Position numbers and translations under genes: made by a program | Shown here: piece by piece, positions 34,044 to 60,864 of the stretch | Numbering within the stretch: the stretch's first letter is position 1 | How the letters are laid out: every line of letters begins with the position of its first letter | Notes under the pieces: generated by a model | What the model saw: only the letters and a program-made list of their open reading frames with translations | The model's database searches: none | Told to the model about the DNA's origin: nothing | Source of the DNA: Limnephilus marmoratus | Taxonomy: Eukaryota > Arthropoda > Insecta > Trichoptera > Limnephilidae | NCBI GenBank assembly: GCA_917880885.1 | Contig: OU862927.1 | Span: 38,715,571-38,779,570, forward strand | Direction: 5' to 3' | Length of the DNA: 64,000 nt

Positions 34044-34291
34044 TTACAAAATTACAAAATACTAGCGAGTACCCGGCATGCGTTGCAATTCCACTCAAAG
34101 AAATAAAATGTTTCTCCCTGCATGTCCTTTCCCATGCTTCCCCGTTCTCGCCCCCATTCCCCTCCTGCACCCCATTCCCCTTCCCGCGTTCCCCTTCCAC
34201 CTTCCCCGCCATCCCACCCCTTTCCTTCGTTCCCCTCCATTCTTCGGAATTCCCCCCCCCCCCCTCCTTACCACTAAACTAAATAAAATGC

Positions 34292-34460
34292 GTTTTAAGC
34301 TTTTTTTCACGGCCAAAAGCATTTTCGGTTTTTGTTTCATTAGATGTGACACATCTACCGGATCTGCCCTGATGATGGACACTGCAACGATGTCCGAAAC
34401 GTTGGCTAAAGAAGGAGGTAGCGCAACACGGCATAACACCCCAAAAACAAATAACGAAAA
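34292..34460 (+). mobile_element. PLE-like element P2, 169 bases, with 12-base duplication
   Basis: TAAATAAAATGC occurs at 34280-34291 and exactly again at 34461-34472. The body starts near CACGGCCAAAAGCATTTTCG and ends CCCCAAAAACAAATAACG, and contains the best preserved P2 hammerhead-like motif. The other two copies (42817-43020, 60492-60731) share both ends. No protein is encoded. Confidence 0.8.
34366..34406 (+). ncRNA. Hammerhead-ribozyme-like motif (P2)
   Basis: CTGATGA (34369-34375), stem II GGACA/TGTCC (34377-34381 with 34391-34395), GAAA (34396-34399), palindrome ACGT, a GTT triplet ending at 34403 at the cleavage position, and stem I GCC/GGC (34366-34368 with 34404-34406). All core bases are present. 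One extra T separates the first core block from stem II, and GTT is a weaker site than GTC. Confidence 0.6.
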
Positions 34461-34640
34461 TAAATAAAATGCACTCATTTTTCAAACAACTCGCGCGCTA
34501 CTTACTGCAAAATTCGCTTACAAATTTCATAAAGCCAGAGTTCACCAGTATATATAAACCTTCGCGAGCGTTAAGTTTCATCGCGATCGAATGAATAGAA
34601 TAGGAATTAAATTCATAACGCCAGAGCTCACTATTATATG

Positions 34641-35480
34641 TATATAGACACCATCATGAATACTACCGTCTCGGCCTGAGTACGCTTCATTCCGTATCGG
34701 GATCCCGGAATCAAAATTCTCCACATTTATGGATCCAAACTTATGGCCAAACCATATTTCGTTCAACGAGTGTTTTTTTCCCAGATCAAACCATACCAAC
34801 AAACCATAGCCCTTCACGCCCAAGAAAGAAATGGAAAGTAACATCTACTCTATCCGTTTACTATCAGAACGTTTGACTGAATTCAATGAGTTTGTAAGGT
34901 TTTTGGCGCTACATCCTCACTGTGAAAATGGTACTATTACAATGAATTAGATTAAATATTTGTAATGTTGTAAATTTTTTTTAACACAAATAAATAAAAT
35001 CAAATCACCAAATTTTCATCACAATTGGATGAATGGTCTGGGAGCGCGTAAGGAACAAAGCTAAATTAAAATGAAGTCTTAACGATTTCAAAATGGCTCC
35101 GATGGTATTAACCGCTTTCGTCGTGTTGCAAAATAAAGTTTTATTTAACCTTTAGAGTCAATTAATGGTAAAAACATCAACGAATTACTAAAAATAGATT
35201 GGAATCGGATGTGCAAACATCGTGCATTGATTCATTTGCTTCTCGATTCGAATGTAAAGATTGCTTCTCGACAATTAAATTCGTTGAATGTTCGATAGTT
35301 TCATTGAGATATTCGATAGGCATTGGCCCGTATTTTACAATACAGTCGACTTACTACGAAAACGTGCTATATCCAATTGTCCGTGTATTCTAAATCATTT
35401 AAAACTCTCGAACGGTGGGGTCATGAAATTTGATCAGATTTTTTTTTGTCTGAATGTTAGCAGAAATGTTGTTTTGAAAC
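34641..35480. other. Unassigned stretch
   Basis: No coding family or repeat of this window recognised. Confidence 0.35.
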
Positions 35481-35484
35481 AGTT

Positions 35485-35868
35485 CTTCTTCTTCTTCGTG
35501 TACCTTATCTGGTCCCCCGATGTTGGCGATCACTCTGGTAAATGCATCTCTATCTTGCGCTGCCCGGAATAGCTCCTCCACACTTCTAATACCGGTCCAC
35601 TCTTGTACATTTTGCAGTCAAGACATGTGTATCCTACTAGACCTTCGGAGACCCTCTATCTTACCTTTTAATATTAATTGGAGCAAGTGATATTTCCCCC
35701 CTCGAAGTATATGACCCGGATATTTTATAATTATAATTTTCCTGACTTTTACTAATGTGATTACTTCTCTATCTGCTCTATCCCGCCTGAGAATTTCTGT
35801 GCTGGTGATCATGTCGGTCCATGGGGAATTCTCAGGTGAAGCCACATTTTGATTCCTAAGCACATTTG
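35485..35868 (-). mobile_element. RTE-like LINE C-terminal fragment
   Basis: Two minus-strand frames joined by a frameshift encode ILRRDRADREVITLVKVRKI, then PGHILRGGKYHLLQLILKGK and IEGLRRSSRIHMS, then WTGIRSVEELFRAAQDRDAF and TRVIANIGGPD. This is the C-terminal zone of RTE-type endonuclease-reverse transcriptases of insects. A (GAA)n tail on the minus strand (35486-35498) ends it. Confidence 0.8.
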
Positions 35869-35879
35869 GTGTAAAAAAC

Positions 35880-36175
35880 GTAGGTTGTCATTTTGCTGTC
35901 CGATGGCATTATTTTTCAATCAAACACGATAAAAATATTTTTTCCATCACACGTCGCAACTGAGTATTCTGTCATTCCGTCTCGATCCAGCTGCATGGTA
36001 ACACACGAAACAGCGTGCGTATCACGTGATCCCGTCGCGAAATACAGGAGTATGACCAGAGATGTGTGATTGAAAAATATTGTTTGTATTTATATTTAAT
36101 AGAAACAGTACATCAGTTGACAGCAAAATGACATCCACTTTTTTTCTCCAAATACGCTCGGGAATGTGTTACACC
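35880..36175. mobile_element. M2 MITE, uninterrupted copy
   Basis: Left part GTCATTTTGCTGTCCGATGG, middle TCACGTGATCCCGTCGCGA, right part CAGCAAAATGACATCCAC and GGAATGTGTTACACCC. Left and right parts are inverted relatives. This copy gives the order of the pieces scattered at 19520-21115. Confidence 0.6.
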
Positions 36176-36414
36176 CTTATTTTAGCTCACAAGTTTAGTT
36201 TTATATGGCGTCTTGAAAAGGCACAAATTTTTCTTGGTTTTGATATTCTGGGAAAACGCAAGTATTTTCAAATTGCACCGCCTTGATATAAATTGTTAAA
36301 AGGCCATTTATATTATTTTGCCATCACACATTTTTCTCATTGTTCAATAAAAAATAAAAATGTTTATTGAAACACGGGCAGTCGGTAATTAGTTAGTTAC
36401 GACTAATTGCTTGT
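36176..36414. other. Unassigned stretch
   Basis: Nothing recognised. Confidence 0.3.
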
Positions 36415-36510
36415 AGGAGGTCTCCGTGGTCGAGGAGTGAGGCACTCAACTGGTAATCCGAAGGTGGCGGTTTCAAATCCCGACGTGCAAAAATAAATTT
36501 TATTTGATTA
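36415..36510 (+). mobile_element. tRNA-derived SINE T1 (plus)
   Basis: GGTCTCCGTGGTCGAGGAGTG (A-box region), CAACTGGTAATCCGAAGG (anticodon-arm-like) and GGCGGTTTCAAATCCCGAC (B-box), then an AAATAAATTTTATTTGATTA tail. Opposite orientation to the copies at 16165 and 17212. Confidence 0.7.
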
Positions 36511-36539
36511 ATTATCTTATTTTATAATTAAATCATCAA

Positions 36540-37380
36540 AAATAATGTATAGTTTATTTGCGGCACGTTCCAGAGTGCAAGTATAGCCCTGGTGTAAGAT
36601 ATTCTCAATATAGCCCTGGTGTAAGACCACCATTCAGAATTGAAACGTTGCTTGAAATGACTTTAGCCTTTAGCCGTGTTTGGTGATCAGATCTCAATAG
36701 CCAGATACTTTTCCACCTTCCTCCACCCCATCTACTTCCCCTTCCCACTACCTTCAACCTCGCAACATACCCCAAATAGGAATGCTATACTCTTACTGGT
36801 ATAATACTCCTACTCGAGAAACAAGGCAAAACATATTATTCTGCAACAATAATTCTGTAACCAACTACCACACACATGCATCAATTTCACGATTACACAC
36901 ACTAGGGAACAAATTCACCTCAAATATCGATGTATTTAATACAAGTTTACCTTTATTCAAGAAATATCTGAACAATATTTTTATGTAGAATATTTTGATA
37001 TCTAAGGAGCATCACCTAGGAACTATTGCATGTATTTGTGTATTTCTATAAATCTACAATGTAAAAACCTATTATCGTTTTCTTTTTATGTATCTTGCAT
37101 TTTGTCATGTATTTTTCATCACATTTAATTAGTCACCTGTAAATTTTGTAATTACTAACATACCTACAAGTTTATTTTTATGCCATTTATAACTTAGAAA
37201 CATTCTCTTTTATTGTAATGCACTATCTTTCCTTAAATTTATCTGTATACTTACCTTTTATATGATTTTTACTAGTTATATTCTTATAGTTTATCTTTTT
37301 TATTTAAAAACTGTCTCTGTATTATAAACTTGTCATGTAAAAGCCCATCAGGGCGTTGAAAATTAATAAATAAATTAATA
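36540..37380 (+). mobile_element. LINE 3' fragment with stem-loop tail
   Basis: The frame at 36782-36988 encodes PTRETRQNILFCNNNSVTNY and HASISRLHTLGNKFTSNIDV, the same C-terminal end as at 14292-15236 (PTRTTRSKILFNCNKNIRTE; LIPRLHAIGNAFSEVVDVFN). The 3' end at 37336-37380 has AAAGCCCATCAGGGCG followed by a TAAATAAAT tail. A short duplicated word TATAGCCCTGGTGTAAGA sits at 36582 and 36610. Confidence 0.85.
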
Positions 37381-37984
37381 ATACTGAGACTCGTTTTTAT
37401 CGAAGAATTCCGACAGCTGAAGTGAATGCACTAACCCTTTTTTTATTTCCATAAGAGTGCATTCATTCGATAGATATAAATTCAATATTTTACGGATAGA
37501 TACTCGAAGAACTGTGTTTTTTTTAGATTTTCTTACCGCCTAACCAATATGCAACTGATTGTCAGTAAAAGGCGGTTTTCCTCTAGGCCGACTATATGCA
37601 AATGTTTACGTTAAGAGAAACGGAAATAAAAACAATAATAAATTCATAATCGGCGATAAATTAACATGTCGCAAGTATAACATAAATCAATGTTGCATTT
37701 CTGACAGTCCCACTAAAATAAACACTAACGGAATGAATTTTTATAGAAAATTGTGCAGAATTTCTTGGTCAATGCAAGTATTTTCATTTCACAATGTTGT
37801 TGTGGATCCGATACTTTGGTGTTTCATTCTCAAAACAAGTCCAAGTCACCTTCCTATGAAGAATAACGGGGATTCAAAGCCAAGCTAAGCCATTTCGATT
37901 CGTCGAGCTTCTCCCTTAATCCAATTTTGTGATTCGTGAAAGAATTACCTAATTTATTTGTTTTTAAATACTAAAATACACAAT
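37381..37984. other. Unassigned stretch
   Basis: No recognised gene; a plus-strand frame of about 109 codons shows no family signal. Confidence 0.35.
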
Positions 37985-38858
37985 CTGGGAATTTATATCT
38001 GAAAAATAATATCGTCCAAATGTAAACCCTCACGTTCTCGGCATTCATTTAATCGAAGAGTAAAATTTCTTATGACGGCTCGCCAGGTAGGCTTCGTGAT
38101 GGCTGCCATTTTGTGATGAATATTTTCTTTTAATTTCATCAGGGAAGTCGGATTTTTGGCGTACACTTTAGATTCGAGATAACCCCACAGGAAAAAGTCC
38201 ATAGGGGTTAGGTCAGGACCACGAGGAGGCCAATTTATGTCACCTCTCCTGGAGATCAATTTGCCAGGGAAAATTTCACGAACTCATGGCAGAGACGTAT
38301 TGGACGTATGCAATGTTGCTCCGTCTTGCTGGAACCATGTTCTTTGGTTATAGCCAGTAAGTTTGTAGAGGTGAAGCATTAGGTCTTTGTGCAAAATTCT
38401 TTGTAACGATGATCTATGCACATTTAAAGCACTTGCGCGCTTCCGAATCGAAAAGTTTGAGTCGTCGCAAAAAGATTGATAAACACTCTCTACGTTTTCT
38501 ACCGTTCTCGGAGACCTTGGTCGCCCGGATTTTGATTTTGCCAGCGTTGTACCGATCTCTTCAAACTTTTTGATCCATTTTCGAATGAAAGGAATGCTTG
38601 GCGCATCTTTGAATTGACGAAAATCTCAAATATTGCAGAATCTTCTACGCGCTACAGTCGCCGAATCACCAATCATTTTTGTAAAACTCACGCACGCACA
38701 ACGCGCGGTCGCTCCCGAGAAATGCTTCATAGCGACTAAATTCCCAAGAGCAAGACTACTGATTGACATACCTCCCGCGCCCCTCGGAAAAGTTGCGTTC
38801 ACACAGAAAGCAAAACAAATATCAACTTTCTTTTGGGACACCCTGTATATAAAACTTA
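37985..38858 (-). mobile_element. Second mariner-type element, catalytic middle deleted
   Basis: On the minus strand a TIR-like CAGGGTGTCCCAAAAG (about 38833-38852) is followed, in several frames, by the N-terminal DNA-binding domain (IPFIRKWIKKFEEIGTTLAK, KSGRPRSPRTVENVES, ASALNVHRSSLQRILHKDL), then directly by TWFQQDGATLHTSNTS and the C-terminal catalytic end (INWPPRGPDLTPMDFFLWGY; LNECREREGLHLDDIIFQI). The segment bearing the first catalytic aspartate is deleted and there are stops, so it is inactive. It differs from the element at 30184. Confidence 0.82.
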
Positions 38859-38881
38859 TATTAACTCAATTTATTTTTGAC

Positions 38882-38920
38882 CGTAACCGGTTTCAGCCTA
38901 TTAAAGCCATCTTCAGACTC
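38882..38920 (-). ncRNA. Degenerate hammerhead-like motif
   Basis: On the minus strand: CTGAAGA (38910-38916), a five-pair stem II GGCTT/AGGCT containing two G-U pairs with a TAAT loop, GAAAC, and the palindrome ACCGGT followed by T (GTT triplet). Stem I is weak. The order of blocks matches the P1 motif; activity is doubtful. Confidence 0.4.
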
Positions 38921-38924
38921 GTAC

Positions 38925-39228
38925 AAATGTTTATATACATAACATATGGGAGGAGGAAGGGGGGTAGTCTACAAGGATTTTATTCAATTTATATGTTTTT
39001 TCATATTTGTTGCCATGTCGTCTTTGGCGATTGAATTTCTAGTTATTATGTTTTATATATATAAACTGGAGAGTAAGAAACATTTGCACTAGTCTGAATA
39101 TCAAACCGGTTTTATTATATTATTGAAGTGAAACTTATTTAGCACCGTTTTGATTTGAAACTGGATAAAACGAAAAATATTGACATTAAAAAGAAACAAA
39201 CACATACATCTACAGGATCATCATACAA
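38925..39228. other. Unassigned stretch
   Basis: It contains AATATCAAACCGGTTTTATT near 39098 but no gene. Confidence 0.3.
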
Positions 39229-39229
39229 T

Positions 39230-39525
39230 TTGGGAGGCGGGAATGGGTACCGCCGCCCCGGGAACCTTTGTTGGATAACCAAAACCTCTGCCATAGGTCA
39301 CCCCAAGTGGTTTGCTACGTTTGGTGATTTAGCAGAGGTGTCTGGGTTTGCCTAGGTCTTGGAGGTGGATGACCAGGACACACTGAATCCCAGATTCCAA
39401 CCCACCCCTTAACCTTCCCAGAACTCTCCCTTCATTCCTTTCCCTAAAAAAACCTCCACACAACATCCCCAAAGATGACATAGGCCTTTTCCTCAGGGCC
39501 TCCTGTGTGGAGCTCATTAAAAAAA
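39230..39525 (+). mobile_element. S1 SINE (plus), internally deleted
   Basis: It starts CAATTTGGGAGGCGGGAATG and ends GGGCCTCCTGTGTGGAGCTC. It shares with the 4415 copy the same internal deletion (CTTGGAGGTGGATGACCAGG), so the two form a subfamily distinct from the full-length form. Confidence 0.85.
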
Positions 39526-39682
39526 ATTGCTTGCAAGAGAATGAGATAGTATAATCGATCTCCTCTTTGTGCGGTGCTTCGTAGTCTCCCCTCTGTTGTC
39601 TATTTTAGTTTTCTGAAGGTTTCACTTCTACCGCGTGTGAATTACGCTCCGATTTTTAATTGTTTTTATTTTTTGTTTGTAG

Positions 39683-39826
39683 ATGTCGTGTGAGTGCCCC
39701 ATGACCCAGCCGGGCCCCACACTGGCGGCCACATGCGGCGGAGGGACCTTCATGCTGTTCATGGGACTGCTGGAGGTGTTCCTGAGGAGTCAGTGCGACC
39801 TGGAGGACCCCTGCAACAGACCAGAG
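39683..39826 (+). CDS. Host gene exon, product not recognised
   Basis: A pyrimidine-rich TTTTTTGTTTGTAG acceptor precedes an ATG at 39683, and the segment runs 144 bases (48 codons, phase 0 at both sides) without a stop to a consensus donor GAG|GTGAGT at 39826/39827. The other two frames contain stops. It is markedly GC-rich against an AT-rich background, as real exons are here. The product starts MSCECPMTQPGPTLAATCGG, has a short hydrophobic run (TFMLFMGLLEVFL, residues 23-35) and six cysteines (3, 5, 18, 38, 43 and one near 39-43 by eye), and ends DLEDPCNRPE. The ATG directly after the acceptor could be the start codon or just an internal methionine. A membrane-proximal or secreted protein is possible; I cannot name the family. 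Flanking exons are not in view. Confidence 0.7.
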
Positions 39827-41640
39827 GTGAGTCAAGTCAACATTACAACGGGTGTCTAGTCAGAACCTTATGACATGTGACCCTAGCGGGGCATTTGGGT
39901 TGTTCTTGAACTCGATGACTGTTAATTTTCTCCTTCGAATACAATATCTCGAATCATTGCTGCGTCGTAAGTCATGACTCATGACATAATATTATGACAT
40001 CTATTTATCAGATTATATGCATTTGCGTAATAGCTACTCCATGCAGTCAATATGACGCATAAAACTCATTTCCAACTATCAAATTAAAAAAGTGATTAAG
40101 TCACAAAATTTATTTATGGGAAATCAACTAGATTTTTTTTAAATTTAATTTAATAATGTTATTAATAATTTTTGCAAGTGTTTTAGTATTTATTTTTGTT
40201 ACAGCTGTTTCTGCTTACAAGGCCAGTTTCAAACTGTGGTTAAACCACTTTGAGACGACTTATTTATACGATTTTAAATGTCAATTTTTGAAGTTGTCAA
40301 AATTGAACCGTGGATGTATTTGAAAATATTTAAAAAAAAAATTTATGCATCTAGGGAAAATTTGTTGAAATTCAGTAGAAAAGCGATTGCAAGTTTTCAA
40401 ATAGAGCTGAAATTCGGCAAAAAGCGCTTTAGTGGCTAAGGCTTTGCCTTTTTAGTAAAGTACCTTGATAGTTGATTTTTGCCCCTTTGTATTGTTATGA
40501 CCCTCTTTGCTGGCTTCAAAACCAACACCCTCTCCGGGGCCAAGGGGGCCCTAACATGTCCCAGGCCAGCTCACAGCAGAGACAAGAGGCAAGTCGCACG
40601 GGCAGGGCAAGGGGCAAGTCGCACGAATGCTTCAGAATTCTCTCTCTTCCACGGGCGTCTGGGGAAGTACACTCTAGGAAGTACTTCTGCCGAGGCAGAT
40701 TAACAACAGGATTGAATTAAATAGATTCATGTATTGCAAATTCAAAACACAGTACATAGGTCATTACAGTACAATTCAATACAAGAAATGCATACTACAC
40801 AAACCTAGCTAACGTGTTTATACCTCATGAACTCTGAAAACGAAACTCTCTGAGTGATGGCTTTTCGCGGGAGTTTACAGTCTATCGTTAAAGGACACAA
40901 TCAAAAGAGGAAACAATTGTACAGCTTACATGATGTTCGGGGATCTTCGTCTTCCGGCTTCAGCAGGGGCACCTCCCGAGTTTAGGACAGAACCGAAGTT
41001 TACACAGGCATGGCGAAATACCAGCGCTAAACCCGTAGGCTATTCAATTAACATCGCAGGTGCATTTGCGTTCAATTTGGTCGGCAAAAGCCGGCCGCGA
41101 ACTGTGATTCGACCCGACGGGTCGTAACGTGCGCCCGGGGCGGCTTGCAATTCTCAACTGTGGGCGGACGCGGTGGTGCGCGGGAGTGCAGAGGGGAGAG
41201 GAAGTAGGAAGCAGGGAAACAGGGGGGAGCGGGGTGTTGTTGAAACTGCCGCGGAGATTTTAGGGACTCGAATTCTCTGTCGTTTAGGGCGTACCATAAC
41301 AGTATGTACAACAGCAATTTTTAGAACGTGTGCAAAAATCAACTTATGACATGGGATTCTATTTTTCTATCCAAATAAAAACCATTTTTGAGTGCCAACG
41401 TAATATATGTAAGTCATAAAATTTCGTTCATTAAAAATTCATTGGATTAATGAAAACTAATTTCTACTAACTAACAAACACTCATTACAAAGAAACTTAC
41501 TGCCAATCAGAACTTTCTTTTCTCCCCTAATCTCTCCTATAAATCAAATCGGTTTGAGAGCTCTAAAATTTCAAGATAACCCTTCAGGCTGATTGGTTTT
41601 GCTTTCGAAACAACTCACATAGGTCTCATAGAAGTCGTCT
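39827..41640. other. Probable intron with a GC-rich island
   Basis: If the exon is real this is intron. Bases 40500-40700 and 40930-41260 are GC-rich (CCCGGGGCGGCTTGCAATTC; GGGGAGAGGAAGTAGG) and contrast with neighbours. GTTATGACCC (40494) and GGGTCGTAAC (41120) are near inverse of each other, as at LTR or TIR ends, but nothing else supports an element. Confidence 0.35.
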
Positions 41641-41646
41641 CTCTTA

Positions 41647-42233
41647 AGCCCCGTATTCATGGTAAACATTAGTTTAGCAACATTTGATAAACATTGTTGA
41701 TGAGCGGAGAGAATGTTGCTGGAAACTTGGTTGAAATAAATACAGGTTGTCCACACACCAATCTGCGTTAAAATGTTGCCCGAGGAAGTAGTGTTGTTGT
41801 GTTCTCTGTATCTGATGAATAGGATTTCAATTAAAAAAAGAGAAAAAGATGGTGGATTCGAAACTATCTTCTGCAAAGAGAAAATTTGATGAGTGACCTC
41901 AGAATGACAGATGGATCACTTATTAACTTTACGAGAATGTCGAAAAGTGATTTCGAACATCTTCTGGAAATGATTGGTCCGTCAATAGCCAAAAGGGAAA
42001 CAAATATTCTATTAATTGCATTATTTTATCATTGCTCCACACTACTGCCATGTTTATAAACTGTTGCAAACACGTTCACACACGTCAACATTTGTTGCTA
42101 AACTGATGTTTACGCTCACCGGACGAGAGCTTGTCAACATGCCTTTATCAAGCCAGCAACATGTTGACAGCAACCCCGCAACACGTTGATTCAACTGTGT
42201 TGCTTAACTAATGTTTACCATGAATACGGGGCT
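41647..42233 (+). mobile_element. PIF/Harbinger element, internally deleted
   Basis: A TTA flanks both ends (41644-41646 and 42234-42236), the 3-base duplication of this superfamily. The terminal inverted repeats begin AGCCCCGTATTCATGG and stay matched for 35 bases with one mismatch. The centre encodes LRMTDGSLINFTRMSKSDFE followed by HLLEMIGPSIAKRETN (about 41895-41999), the N-terminal motif of Harbinger nucleases (HARBI1-like). The DDE catalytic part is deleted. Confidence 0.9.
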
Positions 42234-42266
42234 TTACTTTCATGGTGATAAACCTGTTCCAAAGGG

Positions 42267-42563
42267 TGTTAGAAGGTGTAGTGTATGTGTATATAGGATA
42301 ATATAGGTATATTCCCACACCGCGCCCGCTCGGAAAGGTTCGGGTTTCCGGAGATTGACGAGCGGGCACAGTAAATTGGAACAGCTGGCGTATTCGGCCG
42401 GGCTCAGATCTACTCAGGAAGCCTTAGTAAACAGTCGCTACCATTTTGACATACATACAATATTACTTGCGATCATTGTAATTCAATAAATAACACACAA
42501 ACGAACTTACGTTGTATTCATTACTATTGTGGGCTAGTGAGCCACAGTTTAAAGAACATAACA
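42267..42563 (+). mobile_element. Possible solo LTR
   Basis: The segment starts TGTTA and ends TAACA, with a TATATAGG box near the left (42291) and AATAAA at 42485. It is GC-rich in the middle. I could not find matching 4-6 base duplications outside the ends (AAGGG left, GAAAG right), so the boundaries or the nature may be wrong. Confidence 0.3.
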
Positions 42564-42816
42564 GAAAGAAAAAACACTATACTTTATATTCAAATCTAAA
42601 ATTTAACCACAAAATAATTAAAATGTATACCTTTCCGAAACCAAAGTCTCAGATCGCAATTTGAAAAAAATATGAAACTTTGGGAATTTTCATTAATTAT
42701 TTTAACGATAACGTTTATAATATTATACTGATAAGATGTGTGTTTACGTGAAATGTGATACCGGTGTTTTTTTTTCGTTATTACAAATTTTAGTTAAAAA
42801 AAACGTAAGCCGAGCT

Positions 42817-43020
42817 GATTTTAGATTTTCACGGCCAAAAGTATTTTTGTTATTTGTTTTTGGGGTGTTATGCCGTGTTGCGCTACCTCCTCCTTTAGCC
42901 AACGTTTCGGACAGCGTTACAGTGTCCATCATCACACACATCTGCCCTGTAACGCTGTCCGAAACGTTGGCTAAGGTAGCGCAACTCGACATAACACCCC
43001 AAAAACAAATAACAAAAAAA
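42817..43020 (+). mobile_element. PLE-like element P2, fold-back copy
   Basis: GTAAGCCGAGCT stands at 42805-42816 and exactly again at 43021-43032. The ~80-base arms (TTTGGGGTGTTATGCCGTGT left; CACCCCAAAAACAAATAAC right) are inverted copies of the element's 3' part. Remnants of the ribozyme motif face each other in the centre: the left one has TGATGA preceded by G instead of C, the right one has lost GATGATGGACA. Confidence 0.8.
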
Positions 43021-43099
43021 GTAAGCCGAGCTATTTTAAAAACTGTCGTAGGTTTTCAATGAAATACACATACTTTTTAAAAAATTGTGTATTTCAAAA

Positions 43100-43570
43100 A
43101 GTATGTGTATTTAAAATTATTAAATTTGAAAGGGTATTACATCGCCTTTCAAAACCAGTTTTTAGTTTTAAGATGCGATCAGTAATGTTCCATTTATTTG
43201 AATTTTATTGCAAAGCGGACATATTTTGACCTTCCGACAATATAGGCCCGAGAGGACTGTGGGTTCATATAAGATGTCATTTTAGTTACGCTTTTTGTTC
43301 ATAAACAAAGAACAAATTTTCGATTAAAAGCCAAAAACCGATTACAAAAATAGCCGGTTCCTTAGAAAAATTATATCGGGCAATGTCAGAAATTAGGTCG
43401 GGATTTTTTTTTTAATTTTTTTCATATTATTATTTATAGTTTGGAAAATTTCCACGTTGGAAAATCTATATTTTTCTGAAAAAAGTCGAAAAATGTTTGC
43501 TCGGAAAATTGGAAAATTTTCAGAAAAACGTTTATGTTCTTGATTCTATTATGTGATTTTTTTTATCTAT
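43100..43570. other. Unassigned stretch with GGAAAATTTT words
   Basis: The words GGAAAATTTCC, GGAAAATTGGAAAATTTTC recur here and again at 44075-44240, suggesting one older element split by the two insertions between. Confidence 0.35.
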
Positions 43571-43872
43571 ATCAGTGATTCCTGACATTATCTGGAGTAA
43601 AAGATGTAATTGAAATTTTAGTCTCCGATGACTTTTTGGATGACTTTTTTTTTCAATTTTTTTTTCTTCAAAATCAAACTAAAAAAATTTCTTCCGCATG
43701 TCATCACTAGTCACTCAGCCGAGTAATCGACCAACCCCTAAACCTGCCTCCAACTATTCAAAAACACATCAAAAATGTCACCGGAGACCAAAATTTCATT
43801 TACATTTTTTACTCCAAATAATGTCAGGAATCACTGATTAAAGTAAGTCAAGTACGTCCCTTAACACCCTGT
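43571..43872. mobile_element. M1 MITE, copy 2
   Basis: Left arm CAGTGATTCCTGACATTATC, right arm ATAATGTCAGGAATCACTGA and TACGTCCCTTAACACCCTGT. The first ~25 bases of the left tip are missing. The centre has CACTCAGCCGAGTAATCGAC. Confidence 0.75.
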
Positions 43873-43873
43873 A

Positions 43874-44685: not shown

Positions 44686-44689
44686 AATA

Positions 44690-49200: not shown

Positions 49201-49204
49201 GCCA

Positions 49205-50085: not shown

Positions 50086-50099
50086 ACCTGGGTCTTGAA

Positions 50100-50775: not shown

Positions 50776-50778
50776 TTT

Positions 50779-51231: not shown

Positions 51232-51598
51232 GGTGTTAAGGGACGTACTTGACTTACTTTAACCAGTGATTCCTGACATTATTTGGAGTGAAAAATGTTA
51301 ATGAAATTTTGGTCTCCGGTGACATTTTTCATGTTTTTATTTTATTTTTAACAAAAACATAAAAAATGGTAGGTGTTGGACAGTTGGAGGCGGGGTGGGG
51401 GTTGGTCGGTTACTCGGCTGAGTGACCAGTGACGACATGCGGAAAAAAAAATTTGTTTGATTTTGAAGAAAAAAAAATGAAAAAAAGTCATCAAAAAAAG
51501 TCACCGGAGACCAACATTTCATTTACATTTTTTGCTCCAAATAATGTCAGGAATCACTGATTAAAGTAAGTCGAGTACGTCCCTTAACAGCCTGTATA
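51232..51598. mobile_element. M1 MITE, copy 3, both arms
   Basis: Left arm TGTTAAGGGACGTACTTGAC onward, right arm ending AGTCGAGTACGTCCCTTAACA. The arms are inverted over about 95 bases. The centre holds GGTTACTCGGCTGAGTGACC. This copy defines the family. Confidence 0.85.
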
Positions 51599-51639
51599 TT
51601 ATTTTTAAGTGAATTAATTTAAACAACACAAATCAATCA

Positions 51640-51725
51640 AATAAAATTTATCTGCGCAAATCGCGATTAGGACCCGGATCGCTAGTCGAGAGCGTTGCCC
51701 CTCGACCATGGATGCCATCACATTT
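51640..51725 (-). mobile_element. T1 tRNA SINE (minus), degraded
   Basis: On the minus strand CCATGGTCGAGGGGCAACGC, CTCTCGACTAGCGATCCGG and the mutated B-box GTCCTAATCGCGATTTGCG. Tail AAATTTTATTTGATTG. Confidence 0.6.
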
Positions 51726-51729
51726 GTTA

Positions 51730-52145
51730 AGATAGAATCTATCAAACTATTTGTATTTTATATACAGATAATAATCACCATAGATCACATAGCCCCACGC
51801 AGGAAAACTAATTTTGTATTAATATTATAATTTTACATTTGCCAAAATTAATGGACCAACAATAGAACACAGTTCATTGAAACGTTCTAATCTCCTTACA
51901 TCATAATTCCCACAACTTTTTTCATCGCTCTTTGAATTCTTAAAAGCGTAACTAATCATATTTGTTCTTCTGGTATAGACTCCTTTTGAAGTTTAGCCGA
52001 GTCATCCGTCTGTCATTATGAAGCAATATTTAAAATAAAATCGATTTTTGTTTTATACGTCGTTACCCACATGATATACATATATATATATACCTATATA
52101 TAGACTAATAGGGGTCGATAAACTTTGAAATTTATGTCGATACCT
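51730..52145. other. Unassigned AT-rich stretch
   Basis: Contains a TATATATATA microsatellite at about 52080-52098; no gene. Confidence 0.35.
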
Positions 52146-52147
52146 AT

Positions 52148-53750
52148 GAGGGTTGTCCAAGAATTCAATTCCGTTCCAATTTTAAAAATGGAGAAAAAAA
52201 ATTATTTACAAAAAATTCGTTTGACATTTTAGGGACATATCCCCATTATTTTTTGACAAAGTCCCGTTACGATCGATGCACTTGGTGAGCCGTGGCACAA
52301 GATCCTTTATTAACTTATCTTAGAACTCCGCCGCCAAAAATGCTATCACCTCTCCCTCCGGTCGGTCTCCAAAGGTTTTTCGGCCAAATGTTGCCATCAG
52401 GTGAAGTAAAAGATGCAATTCATGTCAGTGATTATATTTTTGTTTCCAGGGTTAGGTAGTGAACCTGTGTATCAACCCAAAAAAACTTCACCTTGGCTGG
52501 AAAAAAGGTTTCGAAGAAATCCGAGCGCTTTCCATACGATTTTGCTCTTCAGCATTTTGGGAACCCAATGAGTACGCAATTTACATACGCCATTTTTCCT
52601 TCAAAATCATTTGTGTGGTAGATTTACCGACGTCTGGGATCAAAATTGCAAGCTTACGAACTTCAACACGCCTTTTAGTTGAGAAAGATAGGCCACTTGC
52701 ATGGACTTCATAACGACTTGGAAAAAATCGTGTGGATAGAGTTTTTTACTAAGATTACGAAAATGTTAGTAAAAATTTTTAGAAATGTACAGTTTTTTTT
52801 ATTTTTAAATAAATAAATCTATTATTTGGGCTCGTGACGTCACTACATGAAAATGTCCCGTCGCCGAAAATGTTCCTATTAATTTTATAAAATTCCACAC
52901 TGATTTATTTTTTTATATGGCATCACTTTGATTTCAGGCGAATTTTTGAATTCGTTCACTAGATTTATTGTTTGTTCTCTGCGAACTTATCATTTGGTTT
53001 GATTTTTTGACAGATGTTCTGAAGAGAACCCCGTACAATTAATGGGTACGGGGTTCTCTTCAGAACGTGAAGAGGATGTCGGTACATGTTTTAGCGGTAT
53101 AATGATTATGGTGCTGATTTTAACAAAATAAAATTTTATAATATTCTTATTATTATTACAATTTACAAGTTCAAGTATATTACATTGAATTTAGTAATAT
53201 AGACGCTGTACATTATAATGATTTATGATCAATAAGATGGATCAAGGAAAAAAATATTTATGAGATGTAATATTTTTGGTATGCCTCGTTTTTCTCCTGT
53301 GCCATTCGTGTGGAAAACGTTATTTTTTTTTTAAATTATTTTCGGCTATGTAATTATCGTTTTTTCACACCTATAAAATTATGTCCCGTCTTTCCGGTTT
53401 ATAAAAAATGGTGTGATTTTTCGGATTGAAATTTTCAAAAAATCCCCAGGGTTTCAAAAATACGATTAAAAAAAAAAAAAAATACAGAATGTCTTAGAAT
53501 ATTTGCCTAAACCGGAAAAAAATTTAAAAAAATGTGATGCAAGTGGCCTATTGAGCGCACCTCGCAGGCGCGGCGGGATCCGACAGCGGAGCGTCCATCT
53601 CAAATGGACGCAAAGATCGCGCTGAAGCAGCTACCAAGCCGAATCACCACTCGTTTTATAAGGGAAAGTCTGAGCTACATGCTAGTGCCGCCATATTTTG
53701 AAAAATAATGTCCGCGTCGCTGAAAGGTCTTTAATTCTTGGACAACCCTC
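52148..53750 (-). mobile_element. Third mariner element, interrupted by the 858-base MITE
   Basis: The ends GAGGGTTGTCCAAGAATT (52148 on) and its complement AATTCTTGGACAACCCTC (about 53732-53749) are inverted repeats flanked by TA. Minus-strand frames give DKLIKDLVPRLTKCIDRNGT (C-terminus) and KSTTQMILKEKWRM, then RTHWVPKML (N-terminal helix-turn-helix region). Most of the catalytic domain is deleted. The MITE at 52691-53548 sits between the N-terminal region and the 5' end. Confidence 0.8.
52691..53548. mobile_element. 858-base TA-flanked MITE, copy 2
   Basis: Same length, TIRs and internal hairpin as 9643-10500, with scattered single-base differences only. TA at 52689-52690 and 53549-53550. 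Inserted in the dead mariner. Confidence 0.9.
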
Positions 53751-53759
53751 GTAAATTAA

Positions 53760-54910
53760 ATAAATAAGGTTTTTTGTGTGGATTGGTGTAGTCGGTTCGT
53801 AAATTATATTTTCGTGATTTGATATAATAATATAGTTATGCCGATTGCTAAAAGGATCCGGATATTATAACAGGATGTATTAGAATGAAGAGATTTATTA
53901 TTCAAACAGATTAACTTTTATTGAACACCCAAAGATTCAACGCGATGTTTTCAGAAACGTTGGAAACACGGTGTTTACTAGGTTACAAACAAAATTAATA
54001 AAATATATTATAAACTAAATTAACAAACTATTTTTTAAATAATTATCATCCCTTCTATCAAGCCTTATCTAAAATTGCCTCCACTTCATTCAACATCTCA
54101 TCTCTTCTAAGTCTGAACTCGACTCGAATTTTTCAGATAATTTTGACATTTGAACATTTAAATAAAGTTAACCTACACCTTCCCTCTTTCCATAATTTGA
54201 TTTGACGGAACACCCTTGAAGGGTAAAAGCCAGAAACATTTGAAAAAAGAAGACAAAGGGAAGAGGAATATTAGGATAAGGATAGTAGATGCTATCAATA
54301 CATTCTATGCTCAAGAATTAATTTGTGATTTGATTCGATATTTCTAAAGGTTATTGTTGTCGATATTATTATTAAATCGTGTATTATACTGCTATTGGAA
54401 TTGTGAATTTTAAGGTTATTTCTGCATGTCGGCAAATGAACAACTTAACCCTCCATGATATTTATTGGTATTTATGGCCGCTTGCCACAAGTCCATCATA
54501 ATTATATATGCAGTGCATGGCATAATAATATAATATGTAACGTTGAAGTTAAATCTCAAAAGAAAAGGGTTTTATGTTCACCTTGAAATAATAGCACGCT
54601 TATTCTGAGAATATGGCAACACTTACCCAATGGAAATCATAAAAGGAATAATTGATTAGCACCTGGTAACACCTACCTACAATTAAGTTCAAGATAATAT
54701 ATGAACTGCCGATGTAGTGTTTTTCGAAGGTAAGTCAAATCTCGTCCATTCAGCATATTTCCAAGGGTACAGGTCAACTTGAAAATTGAAAAATACTATC
54801 GAAACTCGCTATAACTCTATGTGATGAAAAAACCAAATACCCAAATCTGGAAAAACAACATTTTCCAAAAAATCCCAATAAGCGGTCTGAAACCTAAGCC
54901 TAACTATCAA
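53760..54910. other. Unassigned stretch
   Basis: AT-rich; no gene or known repeat found. Confidence 0.35.
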
Positions 54911-54914
54911 TTAT

Positions 54915-55230
54915 CGTAACAAACTGATTGCAATCTTTGGAGCAGATGGGATTTCCTTCCTTGTTTTACCGGGAAGATTCGTCAACTAACGTCATTGGAA
55001 CGGTTCATAGTCGTGAAACATGCCAAACGTGCACCCAACGTTTGTACACGGTTGTTTCGAGGGATCAGATCTTTTCTATGACTCGTTCTTGAGTTAAATA
55101 GCTCGTCTGTAGAACGATTTGCCAGCATTTGTGTTTCATCAATTCTACAATACGTGTCTCCTCAAAGATTACATAAGCCCTGAGTGAATTTATTTTCCCC
55201 AGTACTCCTACGTGGAGTTAATGTAAAACA
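54915..55230 (+). mobile_element. LINE-A 3' fragment, degraded
   Basis: ACTGATTGCAATCTTTGGAG, CAACGTTTGTACACGGTTG and GATTTGCCAGCATTTGTG track the LINE-A coding end, and CCTGAGTGAATTTATTTTCC with GTGGAGTTAATGTAAAAC is the tail. No frame survives. Confidence 0.75.
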
Positions 55231-55234
55231 ACTA

Positions 55235-55535
55235 TTAAATCAAACTAAAAAAAAAACAACACATACAACAACAAAAAACAACACACACAACGACAAAAAA
55301 ACAACACACATGACAAAAAAAAAACAACACATAGGTACAACACCAAAAAATAAAGCACACAAGAAAAAAAACAACACATACAATAACAAAAAACAAAACA
55401 CACAACAACACATACAAAAACAAAAACCAAAACACACAACAACAAAAAAACAAAAAACAAAACAAGACCGAGAAGCAGAATGCATAAACCACAGCAAAAT
55501 AAACAAGCGAAAAACGCAACCACCAAACAACTCAA
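55235..55535. repeat. Cryptic AC/A-rich simple repeat
   Basis: Irregular AACAACACACAACAAAAAA words over about 230 bases directly after the LINE-A tail. The Lys/Thr-rich and Phe/Val/Cys-rich frames on the two strands are consequences of composition. Confidence 0.85.
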
Positions 55536-55639
55536 AAACCCTTTTGCCCGATAAACGGACAACCTGCCAATAAATTAACTTAGTAATAAAAAACTTTTTT
55601 ATAAATAATAAATACGATTTTTTTTCTTACCTTATAAAC

Positions 55640-57171
55640 CAGGGTTTCCCAACTTTTATTTCGCCGAGCCTCCCCGAACCAAAAAAAATATTTTCAAGCC
55701 CCCCTTCAGTGGCGTAGCTAGCGTGGGCATGGGGGGCGGGTTTAGAGAATTTCATTTCAGAAATAGGATTTTTCGTCAATAAAAAGACCGTCAGGCACAA
55801 AATTCGGGACGTTCCGAATATAAACAAAACCGTTTTCAATTTTTTGCGACAATATCCATCGTAATTTTTAACAACCGGGTGTCACCTCCCGTCGGGTGTA
55901 GAGTCACCCCCCCCCCCCCCCCCCGTCGGGTGGCACCCGGGGCGGTCCGCCCCCCCCTCTCAGTTATCAAAAGTTTCAACAAAAATAGGAAACACATTTT
56001 TTTATATTAACTAAATTATTTATTTGAATTTCAAAGACGAGTAGGTACAATACAGATACAATATATTTATTTATTATGGATCTTTAATAGAACAGTAGGT
56101 ACACTTCCAAACAATAATTACTTTTACATTTACATTTCTTAGTGGTCTTTTAATCATACATATTATTCTATTATTATTTTTTTATTTATTTAACTTCTAT
56201 TTTTAAACGACTTCAAAAAGGAGGAGGTTCTCAATTCGACTGTATTTTTTTTTTTTTTTATGTTTGTTACCTCAGAACTTTTGACTGGGTTAACCGATAT
56301 TGATGATTCTTTTTTTATTTGAAAGCTGGTGCTTTCCGTGTGGTCCCATTTTAATTTGGTCCAGTTCTGACAATGACATCCATGAGAAAACCATATAAGT
56401 CTTAAATTTGCATTAAGTATGTGCGCGACAAATGGACGAATAACTCAATATCACGCCAACCGATTGCGATGATTCTTTTTTTATTGGAAACGATGTCCTT
56501 CAAGGGTAATTTGATGAGAGTTTGGTTAGGTTTTGATTATCGGATCCATGACAAATTAACGAAACTCGGCTGAATCTCTTAATTTGACCCTACCGTCGTT
56601 ATGGTCAAATTATGTCTGTCTCATATGAGCAGCACGTTTAGTGGGTTTACCCATATTCAGACAAATTAGTTAGTGTACTTCAGATTCACTAAAAATCAAA
56701 AAATAGTCGCTTGTGCGACACAAGCACATCTCACCTATAACTATGTATATAGTTACAAACCTACCTTGACTGACACCGACTCCAAAAATAACAATCGTAC
56801 CTACATTTTGATGATTAGAAAAAGTAAGTTGATTATGAAGTTGTAGAAGAATACGAAATTATTTTTTACTTTTTAGTGCATTTTTTGAAGTCATTTTTTT
56901 GTTTTGTTAAAATTTTTGTTTATTCTAATTAGATAATGTCTAACAACTGTCAAAGTAATTTTAAAACAAATAAATAAAAACTTATAAAGAACTGTTGAGA
57001 TACTTGAGCTTGCATGCACTGTACCAGATGGTCGATTATGGTACTCGTATTTGCTAGAGCTTTGCTTTGAATATATTTTTTTTTTGGAAATGCAAACGTA
57101 CCTATTACGCCCCTTCTGACATTTCTCTACGCCCTCTTAGGGGGGCGTTCCCCCCCGGTTGGGAAGTCCTG
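55640..57171. mobile_element. hAT-type element with perfect 8-base duplication
   Basis: TTATAAAC occurs at 55632-55639 and at 57172-57179. The ends CAGGGTTTCCCAAC and (complement) CAGGACTTCCCAACC are inverted repeats, typical of hAT. The 1532-base body has no transposase. It contains another element start (CAGTGGCGTAGCTAGCGTGG, 55708), a poly-C tract (55907-55924) and a common dispersed repeat (CCGATATTGATGATTC region, about 56300). Confidence 0.9.
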
Positions 57172-57337
57172 TTATAAACTATAATATACTAAACTACTCC
57201 CCAATTTAAAAATGAGAAACCATTTCTCTATTGAGCTGGGCAGTTTAGTTAAAAAAATAATCATAAGAAACAGATTGTCATTAACATTGAATAATTTGAA
57301 TTTCTAAATGTTTTCGTTTATATTAGCTCCGCACAGG

Positions 57338-58453
57338 TAGGGTTGCCATCTCTTAAATTTGGCAACTAGGACAAGACGCGTTAAAACCCCGGATTTTAGG
57401 GCCCAGAACCCGGACATGTCAACAGGTTTTTTTAAACATAGTCAGTGTAATAAAAAACAGTTGAAAATGTCATAAATCACCTTTTTATTTTTTTTTTCAA
57501 ATTAAATTTAGTCATCTTTTATCATCATTATAAATGTGCTTAACAAAACAGAATCTTATTACAGTTTGTTACAAATTGTTTTAATAATCAGTAAGAGTTT
57601 TTTTATTCTTAAAATAAAACACAAATTATTAATATACTCTGTTATGAAAACAAAACATTATTAAAATATTAAGCCTAACAAAATTCAATTAAATTTTTAA
57701 ACAAAAAGTACTGAGACCATTTTAGTATTCAGTCTTACAATTTTTGAGGTAACTTTTTTACTCAATAATAATTATATTTTTAAATTTTTATTAGCAGCTA
57801 TTTAAACAACAAAATATCTCTTAACGTAATAATATGAACTTAATTTAGTCTTCTTAAATTTTAAGCAACAAAACTGAACCTTTTTAAAGTTTAGACTTAC
57901 TGTAATGTAAGTTACATTATTTTTTTTTTAAGCATAAAATAATAAAAAACTATACTCATTTATATCACCTTAAAGTTTTAATCAACAGCCTTATTGTAAA
58001 TTTCTTTTACTTAATAAAAACAATCATAACTTTAACTACAAAAATGAAAAGAAATTATTGCACTCATAAGTACATTATTTGATTATCTCAGCCTCTCGCC
58101 TTTTTTACTTTTCAGTTTTTTTTGTTTTTATCACTCTTTCCGATAGCTTTTAGAATATCTTCCCTTTTTAAACGGAATTTGTAAAAAATTCAGCTGTATT
58201 CTTGGAAATCGAATTTAATTTTAATTAAAGATAAATGAAACAATGTTACTTTGTTTGAACCACTATTTGTTTAAAGCTGACCGGTTTCAGAACGACCGTT
58301 CCTTCCTCAGGGCAAACGTATACGTTTGACTTTAAATTTTAAGACTTTAAATTTTTTTAAACCCGGACATCAAATGAAACCCCGCCCGGACGCTCCCCGG
58401 ACGCCCTCTAAACTAGGACAAATCCGGGGAAACCCGGACGGATGGCAACCCTA
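57338..58453. mobile_element. hAT-type element inside S1, 8-base duplication
   Basis: CGCACAGG stands at 57330-57337 and 58454-58461. Ends TAGGGTTGCCATC / GATGGCAACCCTA are perfect inverted repeats; subterminal GGATTTTAGGG and CGGGGAAACCCGGAC words also repeat. The 1116 bases are AT-rich with no transposase, and include a P1 hammerhead-like segment. Confidence 0.92.
58277..58313 (-). ncRNA. Hammerhead-like motif inside the hAT element
   Basis: On the minus strand: CTGAGGA (58304-58310), stem II GGAAC/GTTCT with loop GGTC, GAAAC, palindrome ACCGGT (58280-58285) and GTC. Downstream bases (AACAAATAGTGGTTCAAACA) align with those after the motif at 11272, so it is a diverged P1 copy. Stem I is poorly paired. 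Confidence 0.5.
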
Positions 58454-58834
58454 CGCACAGGAGGCCCTGAGGGGCTATGTCATCTTTGGAGATGCAGTGT
58501 GGGGGTCTTTTTAGAAAAACAAATCCGGGAAGGAAAAAGGTATGAGCGATGGATGGTAATCTGGGTGCCAGTGTGTGCAGGAGTGATGTACGTACGAATC
58601 TATCCCTCCCACTACGGTGCAAGGCGATGTTCCTGCTGGAGAGGTCAAAAGGTTTCCCTCAACCGGTCCATCCCGAAACGACCTACCACACAGTGGGTGG
58701 GCAGACTCATCCACCGCCAAGACCTGGACAATCCCCACCTCATTAACCCGGGTACCCCTGCTAAATCACCAGGCGTAGCGAACTACTTGGGGTGCTATGG
58801 CATTGGTTCCTGGAGCAGCCGTAATTAAACTTAA

Positions 58835-59305
58835 ATTTACAACAATATATGTATAAATATTAATAAAGAAAACACAGGAAACAAATAACTCCTGCAATTG
58901 TCACACTGTTTTTTTTTTGTTAAAAATTCAATCTGAACCAAACTTCAATAAATAGCAAAAGATTATTCAAGCGAGGTAAAAATAATCGTAAACGCCAACA
59001 AAAAGTTCGCCTAATAACCCGTAACAAAGCCATTCTCAGCTCTGTAAATATTCTCATTATTATAATATTTTGTTCAAGGTTTTATACAATAATTTAAACA
59101 CACAGAATGATTTACAAGTCGGGTGCCTGACAAAGCGATTAATAATCGCTGCGATTAACCTTACGTTTTCCATGGTTCAAGTAATAACCTCATACACTTT
59201 TGTGCAAAATAATCAAGGGGAATAAAAGGTAATATGACCATTTAAAAACCTGTATAAACGTTTCATTTGTGAAGAAAAATTTGTTAAGAGCTTTTTCCTA
59301 CGTAC
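58835..59305. other. Unassigned AT-rich stretch
   Basis: No gene or repeat recognised. Confidence 0.35.
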
Positions 59306-59307
59306 CT

Positions 59308-59398
59308 AAATATCCCCTACAATATATCCCCGACAAAATAACCTTCGGACAAAACATCCTCCAACAAAATATCTACTATAATCTAACCTAACGTTAGC
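59308..59398 (+). repeat. ACAAAATATC-type short repeats with CCTAAC
   Basis: AATATCCCCTACAATATATC, CCCCGACAAAATAACC, CAACAAAATATCTAC then ATCTAACCTAACG. An inverted counterpart (GATATTTTGTCGGGGATATTG) stands at 60917-60937. Confidence 0.5.
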
Positions 59399-59411
59399 CA
59401 AACTTATTTAA

Positions 59412-59869
59412 CACTAGCTGGTACCCGGCATGCGTTGCTATGCCATTTAATAAAGAAATTATTTCCCCCATTCGTGTCCTTTCCCATTCGTCCCGTTCCC
59501 CTTCCGCCTCCTCTTCCTTTCCCGCGTCCCCTTCCCCTCTCGCGTTCCCACTTCGCCTTCCCTCTCCCCACCCCCCTCGCCCGCTTCGTCCCGCGAACCC
59601 CCCTCCCGAGTTCCCCTCACTCCTTACGAGTTCCCATCCCCTCTCCCGCGTTCCATACATTCAGTCCCAGTACATTCAGTTTTATAACATCTCGCGTGCC
59701 ACCTATTGCAATTTTTTATACAAATTTCATTACGCCAGAGCTCCCCGTTGATTTATACGAACCCTGTACTGACAATAATGAACACAACAAAAAAAGAATT
59801 AACCATTTTGGTGCAGTCGTTCGGAAGTTATGCGCGTACATACATTTCGGCGATTCATTTTTATTTATA
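59412..59869 (-). mobile_element. Dispersed repeat N1 (minus)
   Basis: CTAGCTGGTACCCGGCATGC at its start, a long pyrimidine-rich middle, then GCGCGTACATACATTTCGGC just before the microsatellite. Order is exactly the reverse of 29518-30183. Confidence 0.7.
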
Positions 59870-60463
59870 TAGAAGATAGAAGATAGAAGATAGAAGATAG
59901 AAGATAGAAGATAGAAGATAGAAGATAGAAGATAGAAGATAGAAGATAGAAGATAGAAGATAGAAGATAGAAGATAGAAGATAGAAGATAGAAGATAGAA
60001 GATAGAAGATAGAAGATAGAAGATAGAAGATAGAAGATAGAAGATAGAAGATAGAAGATAGAAGATAGAAGATAGAAGATAGAAGATAGAAGATAGAAGA
60101 TAGAAGATAGAAGATAGAAGATAGAAGATAGAAGATAGAAGATAGAAGATAGAAGATAGAAGATAGAAGATAGAAGATAGAAGATAGAAGATAGAAGATA
60201 GAAGATAGAAGATAGAAGATAGAAGATAGAAGATAGAAGATAGAAGATAGAAGATAGAAGATAGAAGATAGAAGATAGAAGATAGAAGATAGAACATAGA
60301 ACATAGAAGATAGAAGATAGAACATAGAAGATAGAAGATAGAAGATAGAAGATAGAAGATAGAAGATAGAAGATAGAAGATAGAAGATAGAAGATAGAAG
60401 ATAGAAGATAGAAGATAGAAGATAGAAGATAGAAGATAGAAGATAGAAGATAGATAGATAGAT
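59870..60463. repeat. Heptanucleotide microsatellite (AGAAGAT)n, ~84 units
   Basis: About 590 bases of AGAAGAT with only a few variants (AGAACAT near 60293-60320), ending in TAGATAGATAGAT. Because 7 x 3 = 21, each minus-strand frame reads the heptapeptide FYLLSSI repeatedly, producing ~200-codon frames with no biological meaning. Confidence 0.97.
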
Positions 60464-60491
60464 TTTACTATTTTTGAACAATAATTTATTG

Positions 60492-60731
60492 GATACGTTT
60501 TAAGATTTTCACGGCCAAAAGTATTTTCGTTTTTTTGTTTTTGGGGTGTTATGCCGTGTTGCGCTACCTCCGCCTTTAGCTAACGATTCGGACAGCGTTG
60601 CAGTGTCCATCATTAGGGCAGATCCGGCAGATCCGGTAGATATGATGATAATCACTGCAACGCTGTCCGAATCGTTAGCTAAAGATGGAGGTTGCTCAAC
60701 ACGGCATAACACCCCAAAAACAAATAACGAA
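60492..60731 (+). mobile_element. PLE-like element P2, fold-back copy 2
   Basis: AATAATTTATTG at 60480-60491 and 60732-60743 is an exact 12-base duplication. Arms GGGGTGTTATGCCGTGTTGC and GCAACACGGCATAACACCCC-like are inverted over about 80 bases. The ribozyme cores facing the centre are mutated (CTAATGA for CTGATGA; GAAT for GAAA). Confidence 0.8.
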
Positions 60732-60864
60732 AATAATTTATTGTCTTTACAGGTCGTCTGTATTATTTTTGTTCCATTTTACTATTTTTGAACAATAATT
60801 TAATGTCTCTATAGGTTATCTTTATTATTTTTGTCCCATTAGGTTATTAGGGATATCTGTATTA

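Follow-up and report, generated by a model that had tools for sequence, protein, structure and literature searches.

What are the short elements that occur three times, each between exact 12-base direct repeats, in a 64,000-nucleotide stretch of the caddisfly Limnephilus marmoratus (contig OU862927.1, positions 38,715,571 to 38,779,570; the whole of this stretch is called the window)? An earlier note had described these copies, named P2, as tiny carriers of a hammerhead-like ribozyme that encode no protein, and had pointed out that Penelope-like elements (PLEs) carry hammerheads. The coordinates of the three copies and their duplications hold, and the suspected link to PLEs was right and is strengthened here: the P2 arms and the ends of a second family in the window, F2, are almost certainly the pLTRs (pseudo-long terminal repeats) of PLEs. 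It is very probable that GIY-YIG PLE machinery produced the P2 copies as short insertions of two pLTRs placed head to head, and that F2 is a 5'-truncated PLE between inverted pLTRs. P2 adds a new family to a kind already known. The separate class of non-autonomous elements, with duplications of one set length, that had been proposed is not supported in that form, since the duplications vary in length, PLE coding sequence is present and the traits have been described for PLEs. The P2 features of the window are as follows.

34280..34291, unstranded: left target duplication of copy A, TAAATAAAATGC, an exact 12-mer with its partner at 34461..34472
34292..34349, minus strand: left arm of copy A, reduced to the tail and a pLTR remnant
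34350..34460, plus strand: right arm of copy A, a tail-less pLTR with 5' untranslated region (5'UTR), hammerhead and PLE frame head, ATG at 34375
34366..34406, plus strand: hammerhead of the copy A right arm, core intact, predicted cut 34403/34404
34461..34472, unstranded: right target duplication of copy A, paired with 34280..34291
42805..42816, unstranded: left target duplication of copy B, GTAAGCCGAGCT, an exact 12-mer with its partner at 43021..43032
42817..43020, unstranded: copy B; left arm (minus) with tail and GTGATGA for CTGATGA, right arm (plus) without the CTGATGA block
60480..60491, unstranded: left target duplication of copy C, AATAATTTATTG, an exact 12-mer with its partner at 60732..60743
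60492..60731, unstranded: copy C; left arm (minus) with tail, CTAATGA and GAATC, right arm (plus) with a broken core

Anatomy of P2 and its Penelope-like reading frame

The source assembly comprises 1.63 Gb in 67 contigs. P2 was studied in 42 copies: the three of the window, where blastn placed arms in both orientations at every site, and 39 places fetched from the same assembly as the best matches to copy A, so that the sample leans to that type. Stretches fetched from this genome carry L numbers; 28 of them, L059 to L086, were fetched for F2 or GIY-YIG, L059 being the F2 of the window itself. Three P2 copies in the 64-kb window and two in the 144.8 kb of L059-L086 would extrapolate to about 39,000 copies were these stretches representative of the genome, and they are not.

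Each P2 element consists of two arms placed back to back and reading outward. A complete arm begins with ACACATCTACCGGATCTGCC and continues with the core CTGATGATGG, within which the start codons lie, then with GGACA...TGTCC, GAAACGTTGGCT and the codons MMDTATLSETLAK(E/G)GGSATRHNTPKTNNEN. It is made up, in outward order, of a 5'UTR, a hammerhead core enclosing the start codon and the first 30-40 codons of a PLE protein, and the claim that nothing is encoded had to be given up for complete arms. The outer ends are of two sorts, one near CGAAAA and the other, the tail, about 30 bases longer (near TACTTTTGGCCGTGAAAATCTTAAAACNTAT). In 41 tail matches of the fetched loci the shared sequence ends close to AAAACNTATC, a few bases away at most, and what lies beyond, compared by eye, is not shared between copies except in L020/L034, whose flanks are common, L056/L086 and L093/L094, which represent the same place or the same surroundings. 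One tail was present in 39 of the 42 copies, none in three and two in no copy; it stood on the right in 23 and on the left in 16. Such a tail of 30-40 bp on one of two inverted pLTRs is a PLE trait, and F2 agrees with it: in six of the eight F2 loci L059-L066 a complete tail can be seen together with a short end, and in L064 and L065 the short end only.

The second family had been reported at 10913-11359 with a 13-base duplication and a similar motif, and both points were borne out; its features are listed here.

10900..10912, unstranded: left target duplication of F2, AATAAATATTCAT, an exact 13-mer with its partner at 11360..11372
10913..11046, minus strand: left inverted pLTR of F2 with tail; core CTGACGA...GAAA at 11012-11037 (minus), stem III imperfect (ACCCGT)
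11047..11178, plus strand: centre of F2, C-terminus of a PLE GIY-YIG protein (RLDNLEALEIKKSLKNNESIINKQKILSYSPIMDLFPYPPTLH, then stop)
11240..11359, plus strand: right pLTR of F2, 5' limit approximate; complete hammerhead 11272-11309, predicted cut 11306/11307

Among the scored genome matches of F2, 38 of 40 places align only from the part coding for this C-terminus onward. In L061 the F2 frame extends upstream into SGIYKLKCNDCPSFYIGKT, which Pfam recognises as GIY-YIG (27 bits, cut-off 22.6). A PLE is expected to have a pLTR joined to a frame with a telomerase-like reverse transcriptase and a GIY-YIG endonuclease; for P2 the connection to such a long frame runs through a relative, L097, and not through a P2 copy itself. 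A PLE query from L082 (RVT_1, 3.4e-12) recovered two PLE groups, with 72-100% and 46-47% identity (111 of 7993 candidates scored), and L097, of the latter group, holds the start of an 854-amino-acid stop-to-stop frame beginning MMDTVTLSETLAKGGGSATRHNTPKGNNHKIFGRENLKSY / MMDTVTLSETLAKGGGSATRHNTPKGNNHKIFGRENLKSYLTNLYGEE. Its head is 85% identical to the P2 head peptide over 40 amino acids, and its DNA is 93.6% identical to the P2 arm over 94 bp and 79.5% in the tail (E-value 5.8e-21, computed on a two-sequence database); the later part of the same frame is 46-47% identical to the RVT_1 protein. Upstream of the L097 frame lies the C-terminus of another unit (GVYKLSCSGCDKVYVGQTERTISKRISEHF; GIY-YIG at 20.2 bits, below the cut-off of 22.6), an arrangement that is a partial tandem as known for PLEs. 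As a measure of coding constraint, frame heads of eight copies compared with L097 gave proportions of nonsynonymous (pN) and synonymous (pS) differences of 0.097-0.107 and 0.145-0.225, over a very short stretch, and the best 150 of 59,904 first-look matches to the P2 head had open frames of 44-137 amino acids.

Outside this genome, the F2 C-terminus found no candidate in the protein database and, in viral contigs, 34 pattern matches of which none was confirmed; a P2 29-mer had no match in viral contigs. A sequence search of the PDB returned one match for F2 (E = 0.38) and none for P2. Two loci combine families. In L080 (2058-2210) a tailed P2 arm directly adjoins the PLE body of another family, perhaps as a chimaeric insertion, and in L082 a PLE of the L067 family is apparently nested in one of the L082 group, each with a distinct type of hammerhead.

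Target duplications and the hammerhead

Were the duplications constant at 12 bases, as first stated, the same length should recur in all copies. The longest exact flank match in the 42 copies was 12 bases in 11, 13 in six, 14 in five, 15 in four, 11 in three, 10 in two, 18 in one and at most 9 in ten, so that 31 copies fall between 10 and 15 bases with a mode of 12. Matches of at least 10 bases occurred in 32 of the 42 copies and in 15 of 1720 control pairs, formed from the left flank of one copy and the right flank of another. A stricter script, which added loci and left out copies whose ends escaped its patterns, found 31 copies with at least 8 bases, again with a mode of 12 (nine copies). 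The P2 duplications are real and modally 12, and their length is variable. Target duplication is likewise expected of a PLE.

A hammerhead core had been claimed for each window copy. This applies to the right arm of copy A, whose core at 34369 is intact; the other four of the five window arms are defective (CTAATGA...GAATC; GTGATGA...GAAAC; the CTGATGA block missing; a broken block with GAATC). The complete motif was found in 48 of 83 P2 arms of the fetched loci. Our full descriptor (a 3-bp stem I, CTGANGA, stem II, GAA, a palindromic stem III, then H) matched the window only twice, at cores 11275+ and 34369+, in F2 and in copy A, and never in 60 first-order Markov windows. The looser pattern CTGANGA...GAAA is not rare on its own, with nine window matches against 4.3 expected, a number reached by 5 of 100 shuffles. 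A further core of the type CTGAGGA...GAAA lies in a fragment related to F2:

58224..58323, minus strand: F3, pLTR fragment akin to F2 (about 78-79%), core CTGAGGA...GAAA at 58285-58310

Covariance models and comparison between families gave different answers. Rejection by such models and a varying duplication length both stand on the note's own list of refuting outcomes, yet the motif is supported when PLE families are compared. The Rfam hammerhead families, with which the motif was to be searched, reject it: none reached gathering level anywhere in the window, and none appeared up to E = 10 in 34200-34560 or 10900-11380. According to PMC6155905, the hammerheads of PLEs are usually minimal, without helix III. 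Within the genome, the full descriptor matched 24 of the 28 loci L059-L086, the match in L077 probably being due to chance, as the likely motif of that locus fails with a G where A, C or U is required. No strict match was found in L078, L083, L084 and L085, and a relaxed search yielded a good candidate in L085 only; for the other three the fetched stretch may omit the pLTR. A hammerhead in the pLTR is a PLE trait found in this way across families.

Nine sequences (P2, F2, F3, L067, L074, L082, L085, L054 and L077), trimmed by hand to stems and core, were then compared. In stems I and II 97.8% of the cells were paired, the two unpaired cells being in F3 (stem I) and L054 (stem II). Seven of ten stem pairs had changed on both sides, a count reached by 8 of 500 shuffles. 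The covariation score was 0.794; shuffled rows gave 0.277, none of 500 reaching the observed score, and slid rows gave no more than 0.162. Covariation gains no support from the pair types, of which there were 14, against 12.3 in shuffled rows (reached in 104 of 500). The core is conserved and the stems carry compensatory changes; judged by these alignments, the motif is real and common to the PLE families of this genome, and was lost in most window copies. In P2 the residues C3 and G8, in the core numbering that we take to apply, lie upstream of ATG 34375, the second ATG, and the predicted cut falls 29 bases into the frame. The hammerhead would act, if at all, in RNA, and the inserted DNA could do without it; 12-base duplications also flank P2 pairs that have none, namely L086 and the second pair of L023.

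With these results two other identities for P2 can be judged. Long inverted repeats, short non-autonomous copies and exact duplications are also what a foldback or MITE-type (miniature inverted-repeat transposable element) DNA transposon would show, moved by a transposase with a 12-base duplication and containing a hammerhead by chance. We hold this to be very improbable, because symmetric inverted ends and a fixed duplication were not found: the ends are unequal, with a one-sided tail in 39 of 42 copies, and the duplication is variable in length, while the arms include the beginning of a PLE frame, which already contradicts a DNA transposon, and the hammerhead stems covary across PLE families. 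On the same four grounds the MITE and chance readings were rejected. An animal retrozyme, spread via circular RNA and moved by PLEs, is a closer comparison and also an improbable one. The available passages of PMC7229834 describe retrozymes as short retroelements that are non-autonomous, contain type I hammerheads and are suggested to depend on PLEs for their movement, and size, hammerhead, duplications of more than 4 bp and probable PLE dependence fit P2. However, known retrozymes are tandem repeats with canonical hammerheads, and PLE coding is not reported for them in those passages; P2 is an inverted pair with a palindromic, minimal stem III of 4-6 bases and carries PLE coding.

How the paired arms may arise

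Besides the animal retrozymes, two groups of PLEs are the closest systems known to us. PAc, a Poseidon-type PLE of Anolis carolinensis (PMC11167929), has a GIY-YIG and reverse transcriptase protein and a hammerhead-bearing pLTR, the hammerhead overlapping the start codon as described for PLEs; C3 and G8 precede the start codon, as in P2, and the cut lies 26 bases into the frame, against 29 predicted for P2. Its tail is the stretch between two adjacent internal sites at which reverse transcription starts, and partial tandems occur. The purified protein cuts and extends both target strands, and hammerhead mutants still insert in vitro. P2 differs in the form examined, short inverted pLTR pairs without a body, and in that one arm is tailed and the other is not, whereas the in vitro starts of PAc are alike on both strands. 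The Penelope families of Adineta vaga (PMC3846280) share inverted pLTRs, one of which may have a 31-bp tail, junction palindromes, solo pLTRs and the presence of the frame's first codons in the pLTR, with target duplications of 8-10 bp as opposed to modally 12 in P2. The paper gives low copy numbers, and hammerheads are not mentioned (0 occurrences) in its passages at hand. In the open-licence literature, with subscription papers mostly outside the search, the listings showed no paper on a PLE family that is non-autonomous or made of solo pLTRs, apart from the mention of solo pLTRs in PMC3846280.

On this background we consider an insertion that starts from two strand cuts to be rather probable. 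The PLE endonuclease would cut both target strands about 12 bases apart, and each cut 3' end would act as primer for reverse transcription of the element RNA, which would begin internally at either of two sites 30-40 codons into the frame, one giving the tail end and the other the CGAAAA end. Each complementary DNA (cDNA) would run to the 5' end of the RNA and would consequently hold only 5'UTR, hammerhead and frame head; the two cDNAs would then be joined head to head at self-complementary stretches. A single-unit transcript would yield only a pLTR pair, longer copies requiring tandem transcripts. The order of these steps, the choice of start site by strand and the joining are what we infer here.

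The head-to-head junctions bear on the joining step. They were counted as exact-letter patterns in the genome, and since conservation differs by stretch the counts are only roughly comparable. At the 5' end of the arm there are 259 exact junctions genome-wide, which points to a 5' end common to many arms and taken to be that of the RNA. Stem II of the hammerhead is the site of a further 106 exact junctions; of the 50 listed, 48 have a filler of 9 bases, the size of loop II in P2. These junctions are consistent with either joining or snap-back at this hairpin, and may also go back to one or a few amplified copies. Snap-back is the main rival explanation for the origin of the second arm: one cDNA would fold at a hairpin, either the palindrome at the arm 5' end or stem II, and copy itself. 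We regard it as possible, if less than probable. The stem II junctions with their loop-sized fillers and the palindromic junction GGTAGATGTG-N-CACATCTACC, with 19 matches among the fetched copies, speak for it, as does the self-priming proposed in PMC3846280. However, plain copy-back predicts equal outer ends, and exactly one arm is tailed; moreover, the 106 junctions lose weight if they stem from few amplified copies.

Some short pairs could instead be cDNAs of RNA cleaved by the hammerhead, with both arms starting at the predicted cut, which we find doubtful. L086 and the second pair of L023, both flanked by exact 12-base duplications, have arms that begin no more than 2 bases from the predicted cut; the lone arm of L080 begins exactly at it, and junctions at the cut occur at 36 exact places genome-wide. 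A control pattern 7 bases downstream of the cut nevertheless yields 18 places, many fillers permit starts at -1 or -2, and the stem II window yields more, namely 106. Ten of the 36, all the same length, are P2 junctions crowded into 1.8 Mb of contig C29 (18.15-19.97 Mb), a pattern that amplification of one copy along with the neighbouring DNA would give; 26 are left without them. With so small an excess over the control, a footprint of cleavage is not established.

Several points weigh against two-strand insertion by PLE machinery as the origin of P2. The 39 fetched copies are a biased sample, as they were chosen for their match to copy A, and the one-tail count was made without pLTR-free controls. 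In ten of the 42 copies the flank match of at most 9 bases is no better than chance can give. No complete PLE with the commonest P2 type of pLTR was seen among the 150 scored of 59,904 candidate matches to the P2 head, L097 being a relative. The start sites reported in PMC11167929 are alike on both strands and leave the one-tail rule unexplained, and PMC3846280 prefers snap-back of a single cDNA on an antisense template.

The one-tail rule suggests that start sites differ between the target strands, or that the second arm is made in another way. Many short clean insertions in one genome show, event by event, where the two start sites lie, how wide the stagger is and how the arms meet. A wider reading, which we offer tentatively, is that P2 is a self-amplifying non-autonomous Penelope family of perhaps at least ten thousand copies, in which stem II has a second role as a DNA joining hairpin. 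A cassette of about 130 bases would hold the 5'UTR, the hammerhead and both reverse-transcription start sites, any outward transcript could re-mobilise it, and the stem II hairpin would be the place where two cDNAs, or one snapped-back cDNA, are joined head to head.

Other repeats of the window

Some repeats lie close to the elements described above. About 85 copies of the 7-base unit ATAGAAG (59869-60462, 99% matches) end 18 bases before the left duplication of copy C, and inverted repeats of 111 nt, 98% complementary, span 10693-11731 with F2 and a tRNA-Thr gene (11589-11661) inside or beside them. At 25822-26379 two arms of 196 nt are 99% complementary to each other, and Rfam, but not ARAGORN, gives a tRNA-like match in each; together they are perhaps a tRNA-derived short interspersed nuclear element in inverted copies. 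Other remnants of mobile elements (14295-15281, 30454-30900 and 38287-38625) comprise a reverse transcriptase of the long interspersed nuclear element type (RVT_1), a Mos1-type HTH_48 and weak helix-turn-helix matches below cut-off. Dispersed repeats around CCTGAGGGAAATTATTTTCCTCAGGGCCTCCTGTGTGGAGTTAATGT start at 4617, 9217, 15728, 20271, 20917 and 62302, these six in the same orientation, with relatives in the opposite one.

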